This document shows positions 11,247-29,746 of a DNA stretch of 64,000 nucleotides, piece after piece (the first letter of the stretch is position 1; every line of letters begins with the position of its first letter). This stretch comes from Chloroflexota bacterium (GTDB taxonomy: Bacteria > Chloroflexota > UBA11872): the NCBI GenBank assembly GCA_022824865.1, contig JAJDZD010000013.1:1-64000 (forward strand), read 5' to 3'. The notes below the pieces were generated by a model. The model had not been told where the DNA came from. It saw nothing but the letters and a program-made list of their open reading frames with translations, and did not search any database. The position numbers and the translations under genes were made by a program.

Positions 11247-13895
<2,649 letters not shown>

Positions 13896-13912
13896 CCGGG
13901 AGCCGCCTTGCC

Positions 13913-15044
13913 ATGACCGAAGCCGTCGATACCGCCGATCTCGAGGGGCGCGCCCGCCGCGCCCGGCAGCGGGTCACCGAGATTCGGAGGCATCTTTGAC
14001 CTGGCGGCCAAGCGCGCGACGCTAACCGAACTCGACCGCCAGGTCGCCGCCCCCGACCTCTGGGACGACCCCGACCGCGCCCGCGACGTCATGCGCCGCC
14101 ACCGGCGCGTCCAGGACGAAGTTGACCTCTGGGACGAACTCGACACGCAAGCCGACGATGTGGTTGGGTTGGTTGAACTCCTGGACCCCGACGACCACGA
14201 TCTCCAGCAGGAAGTCGCGAGTGAGGTCGCGGCCCTCGAAAACCGCCTGGCCTCCCTGGAGTTTCAACTCCTGCTCGGAGACGAATACGACGAGCACGAC
14301 GCCTTCCTGACGGTCCAATCCGGTGCCGGCGGCACCGAATCCCAGGACTGGGCCGAGATGCTGCTGCGCATGTACTCCCGCTGGGCCGATTCGCGTTCGT
14401 TCGCGCCCGACGTCGTGGACATCTCGCACGGTGAAGAGGCCGGCATCAAGAGCGCCACCCTGCGCGCCTCCGGCCGCTACGCCTACGGCTACCTCAAGGC
14501 CGAGCGCGGCGTCCACCGTCTCGTGCGTCTCTCCCCCTTCGACGCCAGCAACCGCCGCCACACCTCGTTCGCCCGCGTCGACGTCGTACCCGTGCTGGAG
14601 GACGTGGACGAGGTGGCGATCAGCCCTGAGGATCTCCGTGTCGAGACCTTCCGCGCCAGCGGCGCCGGCGGCCAGTACGTCAATAAAACCGATTCCGCCG
14701 TGCGCATCCGTCACGAACCCACCGGCATCGTGGTCTCCTGTCAGAACCAGCGCTCGCAGCACCAGAACCGCGAGGTCGCCATGGAGATGCTCGGCGCGCG
14801 TCTCCTGGAGCGCCAGATCGCCGAGCGCGAAGCTGAACAGGCCCGCCTGCGCGGCGAGCAGGCCGCCGTCGACTTCGGCAGCCAGATTCGCTCGTACGTC
14901 CTGCACCCCTATCGTCAGGTCAAGGACTTGCGCACCGGGCTCGAAGTCGGCAACGCCGACGCCGTCCTCGACGGCGCGATTGACCCCTTCATCGAGGCCT
15001 GGCTCCGCGCGTCCATTTCCTCTGGAAACGAGACCGACGCATGA
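13913..15044 (+). CDS. prfB: Peptide chain release factor 2 (programmed +1 frameshift)
   Basis: RF2 recognises UGA and UAA. The gene starts at ATG 13913; frame 0 reaches CTT (13994-13996) then an in-frame TGA (13997-13999). Skipping T13997 continues GAC at 13998 and stays open to 15044. The product is 376 residues and the joined sequence (RRHL-DLAAKRATL) aligns with normal RF2. The stop-codon tripeptide SPF (LVRLSPFDAS) and the peptidyl-hydrolysis motif GGQ (GAGGQYVNKTDS) are present. The frameshift makes RF2 control its own level: scarce RF2 stalls at UGA and favours shifting. It sits 17 nt after secA and its stop overlaps the next ATG. Confidence 0.96.
13985..14000 (+). promoter_or_regulatory. 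RF2 frameshift site
   Basis: CGGAGG CAT CTT TGA C: an internal Shine-Dalgarno-like GGAGG three bases before the CTT slippery codon, followed by TGA and C. The spacing and order are the same as the known Escherichia coli prfB site (AGGGGG TAT CTT TGA C). Ribosomes shift +1 from CTT to TTT. Confidence 0.95.
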
Positions 15045-17819: not shown

Positions 17820-18500
17820 CTGATCGTCGTCCAGGGAGTCACCAAGCGCTACGACGGCGAGCCCGCTCTCGCCGACGTCTCGATCGCCATCGCCCGCGGC
17901 GAGTTCGCCTTTCTCATCGGGACCAACGGCGCGGGCAAGACCACCCTGCTTCGCATCCTTCTGCGCGAAGAGGCCTTCGATTCCGGCGTTGTCCTCGTCA
18001 ACGGCGTCGACGTGTCCAGGATTCGCGGCGCCGCGCTTACCAAGTTCCGCCGCCGCATTGGCGTCGTATTTCAAGACACCCGCCTGCTGCCGAACGCTAC
18101 CGTCCGCGAGAACGTGGGTCTGCCGCTTCAAGTCCGCGGGCGCGCCAACCGCGAAATCGACTTGGCGGTGGACGACGTGCTGGATCGCGTGGCCCTGTCC
18201 GATAAGTCCGAGCGATTTCCCCGTCAACTCTCCGGCGGCGAACAGCGCAAAGTCGCCCTCGCCCGCGCCGTCATTTCCAAGCCCGATGTCCTGCTCTGCG
18301 ACGAGCCCACCGACAGCATCAACCCCACGCACGCGCGCGAGATCATGGGCCTATTGCTCGAAATCAACAGCGACGGCGTCACCACCCTCGTCGCCACCCA
18401 CGACAGCGAAATCGTCAACAACCTCCGCCGCCGCGTCATCCGCATGGACGCCGGCGCCATCCTCGCCGACGAACCCGTCGGCGTCTTCAGCGCCACCTAA
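17820..18500 (+). CDS. Second FtsE-like ABC ATPase (apparent CTG start)
   Basis: A 226-residue ABC ATPase clearly related to FtsE: Walker A GTNGAGKTTLL, Q-loop FQDTRLLPNATV, signature LSGGEQRKVALARA, H-loop ATHDSEIV. Walker B reads LLCDEPTDSINP in place of the usual DEPTGNLDP, a change in the D-loop neighbourhood. The alignment with FtsE starts exactly at a CTG codon (17820, LIVVQGVTKRY against [11 protein letters not shown]) and TAGGAG lies 8-14 nt upstream, so CTG is the likely start; no ATG, GTG or TTG lies nearby in frame except far inside ftsX. It could form a heterodimer with FtsE under FtsX, or have diverged to another permease. Confidence 0.85.
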   Translation: MIVVQGVTKRYDGEPALADVSIAIARGEFAFLIGTNGAGKTTLLRILLREEAFDSGVVLVNGVDVSRIRGAALTKFRRRIGVVFQDTRLLPNATVRENVGLPLQVRGRANREIDLAVDDVLDRVALSDKSERFPRQLSGGEQRKVALARAVISKPDVLLCDEPTDSINPTHAREIMGLLLEINSDGVTTLVATHDSEIVNNLRRRVIRMDAGAILADEPVGVFSAT

Positions 18501-18532
18501 TCCGGCGTTAGCTCACTCGGCGAGGAGAACGA

Positions 18533-19400
18533 TCAGACGGCAAGATCAAACGGGAGGTCGCTGATGTCCCGCAATCGGTCGCCCTCAATCATCGTCTCCA
18601 GCATCTCCGATTGGTCTCCAGCCTCGGGGTAAAGATGCGCAGACGCCCCGCAACTCGTTCAGCGCGAAGTGATACACGCAATCGAGATCACCCGTCCCAA
18701 GCGCCAGCGACGCAATCCGCATTGGAAGTGGTTCAGCCGTGACGGCGACGATATGCGGCAGGGTGCCCTTGCGATTCCTGATGAGATTCAGCGCTTCCGT
18801 GCGGGTGTTCTGAGAACGGTCACTCCGAATCGTCCACTTGCACGAAACACTCGCATGCAAGAATGGAAGGCTGGCTGCCTTATTTGTCTCGATAAACGGC
18901 GTCAGTGAGGCTGCTTTCGAGTCATCCAAAATGACGCGGTATTCATTGACCTCCTCCTGGGTCGTGGGGAGGCGCGATATGACGATGTCCGGCGTTACGA
19001 TATAGCCATGGCCAAGCGCTGCTGAGAGGTCTTGATTTGTGCTGACGACCTTGTCAAGGATCTCCAAATGCCGATACTGAACGAATCTAGAAATCCGTGT
19101 CTGTGTAGTAAGGTATTGCCAACGTCCAGGCCGTAAGTGACTGATAGCCGAAAACGCTTCTTCTATGAATTCGCATGTTAGCCTTTCAAATAGTGACCCT
19201 GCCGTCTGACCTGAAATACTCTCCGTGTCCTGCTCGTGGAATCCAAGCTGCCTTGCAATAGCATTTGATATCAAGACACTCGACCGGCTGCTTCCGTCCG
19301 CAAAATTAGGATGTGCCTGACCTCCACTGTCAGCGAACCGCACGATTTGGCTGCCAATCTTGGAATGATAGAGTCGCCGAAGTTCTGCAAGTGTTGCCAT
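18533..19400 (-). pseudogene. NgoMIV-like type II restriction endonuclease, C-terminal frameshift
   Basis: The intact frame (19400 down to 18585, 271 residues) matches NgoMIV, which cuts GCCGGC: SGQTAG, FERL (E72), TPDIVISR (D138), HASVSCKWTIRSDR (K188), RTEALN (E202), RKGTLPHIVAVTAEP and LALGTGDLDCVYHFAL. These correspond to the known NgoMIV catalytic residues E70, D140, K187 and E201. After residue 251 the frame is lost at a run of four C/G (18645-18648); removing one base restores a tail ending DRLRDISDLPFDLAV with stop at 18533, like the NgoMIV C terminus, and a length of 288 against 286 residues. All catalytic residues precede the break, so activity is uncertain: real mutation or sequencing error. 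AT-richer than neighbours; 21 nt downstream of its methyltransferase. Confidence 0.9.
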
Positions 19401-19421
19401 GTTGAGTGAAAGAGACAGTTG

Positions 19422-20300
19422 TTACAACGCTGGGATGCCCAAAACGCGCTGTACGCCATTGTCAATCCGTGATCTTGACTGCACGGCGTAGTCTTCGTTC
19501 AACTCAATCAGAATCGCCCTGCGATTCAACTCAGCCGCGGCGACACCGGTCGTCCCAGACCCGGAGAAGGGGTCAAGAATCACATCCCCTGTCCGACTCC
19601 CTAGGAGAATACACCGTCGTACCAACTCTCTTGGATAAGCGGCTGGGTGGGATGTGCCGCCTGGGTCAGGTCCAAGAAGCCAGTAGTTCCTAAGATTCGC
19701 TCCGGTTTCCTCCCGGATCGCCTGATTGTCGTAAAAATACTTGGGCTTCTTCGAGAAGAGAAAAACCTGCTCGGTCGCGTTTGAAGGTCGGTTTCTTACA
19801 CTCTCCGGCATGGGTGCTCTCTTTATCCACGTGATATTCGAGCGCAGAAGCCATCCATCCGCTTGTAGCGCGAAGGCTACCCGCCATGGCAGTCCCATCA
19901 AATCGCGGTCTTTCAGTCCCCAGCAGTCGGGCACCTTGCAATTTCGCTTCTGGATCAGCTTCTTCGTGTTACCAACTTGAGCATTTGGGCCGCTTCGTCC
20001 CGTCCCGCCGTTGCGGGCATATCCGTCGCCAACGTTCAACCAGAGCGTTCCATCATCCGAGAGTACGCGCCGAACTTCTCGGAAGATCCCCACTAGTCGT
20101 TCCACATAGTCTTCGGGCGATTCCTCGGCACCAATCTGGGCCTCGTGGTCGTAGTCTCTTAATCCCCAGTATGGAGGCGAAGTAATACAACTTTGAATGG
20201 ATTGGCTTACAAGCTTTGGCAACACGTCTTGGCTGTCGCCAATCAGTATTTCAACGTCGCCACTGGTGAAGCGAACGGGTACCGGACTGCTTGTCGCCAT
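19422..20300 (-). CDS. DNA (cytosine-N4 type) methyltransferase of the restriction cassette
   Basis: Class-beta amino-methyltransferase, 292 residues: catalytic motif IV TSPPYWGLRDY near the N terminus (SPPY 41-44) and the SAM-binding motif I LDPFSGSGTTGVAA near the C terminus (243-251). SPPY is typical of cytosine-N4 enzymes, though some adenine-N6 enzymes share it. It presumably protects the site cut by the adjacent NgoMIV-like nuclease (GCCGGC by homology, inferred). It is notable that the classical NgoMIV partner is a C5-cytosine enzyme, so this pairing differs. AT-richer than neighbours, consistent with transfer. 20301-20582 on its far side holds no gene I can support. Confidence 0.92.
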   Translation of the reverse strand: MATSSPVPVRFTSGDVEILIGDSQDVLPKLVSQSIQSCITSPPYWGLRDYDHEAQIGAEESPEDYVERLVGIFREVRRVLSDDGTLWLNVGDGYARNGGTGRSGPNAQVGNTKKLIQKRNCKVPDCWGLKDRDLMGLPWRVAFALQADGWLLRSNITWIKRAPMPESVRNRPSNATEQVFLFSKKPKYFYDNQAIREETGANLRNYWLLGPDPGGTSHPAAYPRELVRRCILLGSRTGDVILDPFSGSGTTGVAAAELNRRAILIELNEDYAVQSRSRIDNGVQRVLGIPAL

Positions 20301-20582
20301 CGAGTGGCCACGCTCCGAATCTGACCGATTGCTCCACCAGACACTACTGGATGAAGCAGTTGATTACATGCTAAGCCATGCTGGACGGATTTGCCAGAAG
20401 CTGGCTAGTGGCCCGCTGGCTGGTGAAGCCGCCTCCAGTCAGGGCCCAGGTTCCGCAGGGGCCGTCGAGGAGGCGTGAGACCCAGATGCGTCAGCGGCCA
20501 TCGTCAGACCGGACATAGGTTTTCACCGCCTCCTCACGCCGCTGCGCTACGGTGGAATCAGCCTCCCCTGGTCGAACGTCCC

Positions 20583-29603: not shown

Positions 29604-29746
29604 CGCGTCCCCCGCCCCTGAAAGCCATGGGAGCCTACTCGGTTCTGCCCTTGCACACCCCGGCAGGAGCGGCGCTAACGGCGCGCACGATATCCACGAC
29701 CGTGCGAGCCTTATGGGCTACCCGAAACCCTCCCACTGAGACCCTG

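Follow-up and report, generated by a model that had tools for sequence, protein, structure and literature searches.

The analysed stretch of 64,000 nucleotides from a Chloroflexota genome, hereafter called the window, carries a compact type II restriction-modification pair, in which an NgoMIV-family nuclease has lost its C-terminus by a frameshift and the adjoining SPPY methyltransferase gene is intact. We consider it likely that a cassette for GCCGGC cleavage and cytosine N4-methylation was exchanged between lineages, and that a nuclease-disabling frameshift subsequently left it in a methyltransferase-only state. The system is an ordinary DNA-defence gene pair rather than a new kind, and the observation is new at the level of the variant. 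The cassette sits between an FtsE-like ABC-transporter ATPase gene and an S41 peptidase gene. Both of its genes lie on the minus strand, with the methyltransferase first and the nuclease downstream after a gap of 21 bases. In the following layout, the window belongs to genome G000, while L003, L004, and L013 are the nuclease loci of the congeneric genomes G004, G010, and G002, respectively.

18585 to 19400, minus strand: NgoMIV-family type II restriction endonuclease, 271 residues as read, C-terminally truncated by the frameshift (PF09015, 1FIU)
18626 to 18629, minus strand: frame-break run, with one base more than its counterparts in L003 and L004 (comparison with the intact congener copies)
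18533 to 18625, minus strand: intact family tail, 30 residues and a stop codon, now out of frame (family profile; relatives)
19422 to 20300, minus strand: SPPY methyltransferase of the N6_N4_Mtase family, predicted to form m4C, 292 residues (PF01555; tree)
18497 to 20424: tract of about 98% identity to congener G004 (L003), with flanks at 87-88%
18501 to 20540, right edge approximate: insertion relative to congeners with an empty site (locus comparison in the genus)

No convincing terminal repeats that would mark a mobile element were found at either end of the cassette, and a search for structured RNA within it gave none.

The window nuclease is a broken member of the PF09015 family, and not an outsider. 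It matches the NgoMIV_restric profile with an E-value of 2.8e-87 and 292.9 bits (cut-off 23.2) over profile positions 1-242 of 275, and a sequence search against the NgoMIV structure 1FIU gives an E-value of 4.4e-65; NgoMIV itself (1FIU/4ABT) is the sole solved relative by sequence. The predicted fold of the intact congener protein aligns with 1FIU over its whole length (TM 0.89/0.90), and the next structural matches, Bse634I and PspGI, are weak. Glu72, Asp138, Lys188, and Glu202 of the window nuclease are the equivalents of the NgoMIV residues Glu70, Asp140, Lys187, and Glu201, and all four are kept. Likewise, the residues with which NgoMIV contacts GCCGGC (D34, Q63, R191, S192, D193, R194, and R227), whose site-reading roles are taken from PMC4652773, are all present in the window protein and nearly invariant across the family. 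Judging from its family and these kept residues, the enzyme would probably cleave GCCGGC, as NgoMIV does. The preliminary description had recognized an NgoMIV-type nuclease with its catalytic residues in place, which is confirmed here, and the site that it predicted, GCCGGC, is supported by the retention of the site-reading residues.

Where does the reading frame fail? As compared with the intact copies L003 and L004, it departs at the run 18626-18629, and the protein ends in CASLP-RGWRPIGDAGDDD, with 13 unrelated residues (RGWRPIGDAGDDD) in place of the 30 that are lost (259-288 in the L003 numbering). The family tail, EAGDQSEMLETMIEGDRLRDISDLPFDLAV, is still encoded out of frame; its protein sequence is identical to that of both congeners, and alone it scores 34.4 bits against PF09015. 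The loss of frame near the C-terminus and the intact tail in the shifted frame were therefore correctly noticed in the preliminary description, but the break is not at 18645-18648, as was stated there, and 30 rather than 37 residues are lost; the C run that had been named (18646-18649 on the plus strand) is of equal length in L003. Phase variation at the frame-break run was rejected by inspection, since 3-4 bases are too short and there is no repeat tract.

The pattern GxRLRDISDLPxDLAx in the tail is nearly invariant in the 84 relatives, and the tail is entirely missing only in the window and in L065. When the intact protein is modelled, the tail folds as two helices separated by a short strand (block pLDDT 90-96), while the replacement end in the model of the truncated protein is unstructured (pLDDT about 51). 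Because the lost tail is nearly invariant among the relatives and structured in a confident model, the truncated nuclease is probably inactive or unstable, despite its retained catalytic residues. Since all of the catalytic and DNA-reading residues are located before the break, one may suppose instead that the truncated enzyme still acts in a reduced or altered assembly, for example as a dimer in place of a tetramer. This is unlikely, as the model places the lost segment within the folded core and 1FIU aligns with the intact congener model through to its end.

The frameshift could also have come from a mistake in the assembly or from a minority variant, with a full-length, working nuclease in the cell. 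We regard this alternative as possible, though doubtful. The window genome is a multi-contig assembly with 92% completeness, its congeners carry intact nuclease copies, and the tail past the break is unchanged, its 90 bases differing from those of L003 at a single synonymous position. However, in the roughly 26 kb that align with the congener, no other conserved gene shows a clear uncompensated frameshift (a one-base difference at 29676 is not assigned either way); two other isolated one-base differences apparently lie outside conserved genes. Moreover, a four-base run is an atypical site for a short-read error. Four other relatives (L028, L040, L055, and L065) also have a broken nuclease beside an intact SPPY methyltransferase, although these are candidate breaks in which assembly errors are possible, and a few relatives are found in the reverse state, with the methyltransferase broken, or are truncated at a contig edge. 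As the sole clear case in the aligned region, the frameshift is favoured to be a real mutation in the cells.

The neighbouring gene was described at the outset as an SPPY methyltransferase of the cytosine-N4 type, unlike the C5 partner of NgoMIV. The SPPY motif and the difference from C5 are confirmed: the protein is of the N4/N6 type and matches PF01555 with an E-value of 3.6e-49, and motif IV (TSPPY) precedes motif I (DPFSGSGTT), with an FxGxG motif also present. Its dN/dS values, 0.095 to L003 and 0.083 to L004, indicate that the gene is under purifying selection, most of that time predating the frameshift. The SPPY motif alone is insufficient proof of m4C. The enzyme most likely protects GCCGGC by cytosine N4-methylation, with the chemistry predicted from the family and the specificity from the pairing. 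In the literature searched, we found no published case of m4C at GCCGGC, and the entries for Thioflexothrix (predicted) and for the gonococcus at this site are m5C.

The closest named relatives of the methyltransferase that we found, at 46-48% identity, lie beside XcyI-family nucleases, which cut CCCGGG and thus share the CCGG core, and the best plasmid relatives adjoin XcyI-family nucleases; phage methyltransferases are about equally similar to the window enzyme. PMC8557920 counts M.XcyI and M.Cfr9I among the cytosine-N4 enzymes. These relationships would allow the window methyltransferase to target another site, such as CCCGGG, and to be paired with its nuclease by accident, which we consider highly unlikely. 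The methyltransferases paired with NgoMIV-type nucleases (the short SPPY type) form one clade with the window enzyme inside it, separate from the XcyI-paired ones with a support of 100/100. Nuclease and methyltransferase distances also co-vary across 19 genomes (Mantel r 0.858, with 0 of 5000 permutations as high), and a mismatched pair would be lethal wherever the nuclease is intact. Thus, the methyltransferase phylogeny, in which the preliminary description had seen a possible refutation, does not place the enzyme with those of an unrelated site, the XcyI-side relatives sharing its CCGG core. The genus has other TSPPYW methyltransferases (L145-L149 and G000:C32:20452-21204), at 42-49% identity, which form a clade separate from the window enzyme, the G000:C32 copy being outside the tree.

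We examined the partner types in a nuclease tree that comprises the best 80 of 350 loci in the genome collection, biased to near relatives, together with relatives from whole genomes. In this sample, 82 of 85 relatives have an SPPY partner of one of two types. The rows comprise 22 with the short SPPY type, including the window, and 61 with the long type, a few rows being the same genome fetched twice. C5 partners are confined to the branch of NgoMIV (its partner being taken from the literature on the gonococcal GCCGGC system), L080, and L083. The pairing with an SPPY enzyme, which had seemed odd, is therefore the rule among these relatives. The short-SPPY nucleases form one clade (100/93), spanning Chloroflexota, Cyanobacteriota, Planctomycetota, Nitrospirota, and Pseudomonadota.

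The Vsr repair gene serves m5C. Among the plasmid-borne NgoMIV-type nucleases examined, the partner is C5 in four of four and a Vsr gene is present in two of four. When the nuclease loci were searched for Vsr, the sole match lay beside the C5-paired L080, and none lay beside the SPPY-paired nucleases at the loci searched; a search for a C5 methyltransferase gene near the window nuclease also found none. A Vsr mismatch-repair gene occurs elsewhere in the window genome (G000:C21:42018-42236), on another contig and unlinked to the cassette. We give about even credence to the broadest reading, in which a widespread NgoMIV-type subfamily bears m4C rather than m5C at GCCGGC, its partner was swapped twice (among C5, long SPPY, and short SPPY, in a direction that the tree does not root), and the window copy was exchanged and then lost its nuclease with the mark kept. 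In this nuclease family, the residues that read the DNA have been kept, whereas the partner methyltransferase has changed and, with it, probably the chemistry of the methyl mark.

In 10 of the 12 other species of the genus the site is empty, with 95-234 bp between the ATPase and S41 peptidase genes; the cassette is present at this locus in the window, G004, and G010, and G002 has a related cassette elsewhere in its genome. Between the window and L003, the 1.9-kb cassette (18497-20424) is about 98% identical with sharp edges, while both flanks are at 87-88%. The corresponding dS values are 0.055 for the nuclease and 0.079 for the methyltransferase, as compared to 0.50 and 0.36 for the two flanking genes, which indicates that the cassette allele moved recently between the window lineage and this congener. 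Slow evolution of the cassette was rejected as the cause of the high identity, since the same genes are at dS 0.47-0.65 to L004, like the flanking gene (0.475). Neither edge of the tract extends beyond the inserted segment, which would be consistent with the replacement of an older resident copy. The frameshift is placed after this transfer, in support of the earlier suggestion that it is recent.

Counts of GCCGGC had also been suggested as a check. The site is not avoided in 395 kb of the window genome, window included (observed/expected 0.95), and its density is similar across the congeners apart from two, whether or not they carry the system. Avoidance was consequently dropped as a sign of activity, and its lack neither supports nor opposes activity. 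In the same 395 kb, the palindromes AAGCTT (0.26), ATGCAT (0.36), and CGATCG (0.69) are under-represented, possibly as traces of other restriction systems. Separately, at 13717-15044 of the window, a release factor 2-like reading frame from 14091 is preceded by one in another frame (13717-14025), a pair that could be a programmed RF2 frameshift.

We propose the following sequence of events. The cassette was inserted between the ATPase and S41 peptidase genes, with a nuclease built to cut GCCGGC and a methyltransferase most likely guarding the same site through an N4-methylated cytosine. It was exchanged recently between the window lineage and its congener. Subsequently, the nuclease would have gained the one-base frameshift that removed its last 30 residues, most likely abolishing its activity and leaving an orphan-like, methyltransferase-only state. 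Orphan methyltransferases are well known to arise in this way, when a system loses its nuclease and retains the methyltransferase, and the sharp exchange tract with its later frameshift shows on a small scale, and in order, how a cassette spreads and its nuclease is then lost.

Among the known systems, that of NgoMIV from Neisseria gonorrhoeae (1FIU, 4ABT) shares with the window the nuclease family, the fold, and the catalytic and GCCGGC-reading residues. In contrast, its partner is a C5 enzyme, whereas the window cassette has an SPPY partner of the N4 type, no Vsr gene alongside, and a truncated nuclease. The XcyI and Cfr9I systems (CCCGGG, N4-cytosine) resemble the window in their methyltransferases, which share the TSPPYWGLRD motif, and in the CCGG core of the site, but they differ in the nuclease family (XcyI), in the outer bases of the site, and in their separate methyltransferase clade. 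Pairs of this type also occur at L005-L018, in genomes of Candidatus Synechococcus spongiarum, Nitrospira, Planctomycetota, and Dehalococcoidia; they have the same gene order and belong to the same nuclease and methyltransferase clades; unlike in the window, the nuclease frame in these pairs is intact.
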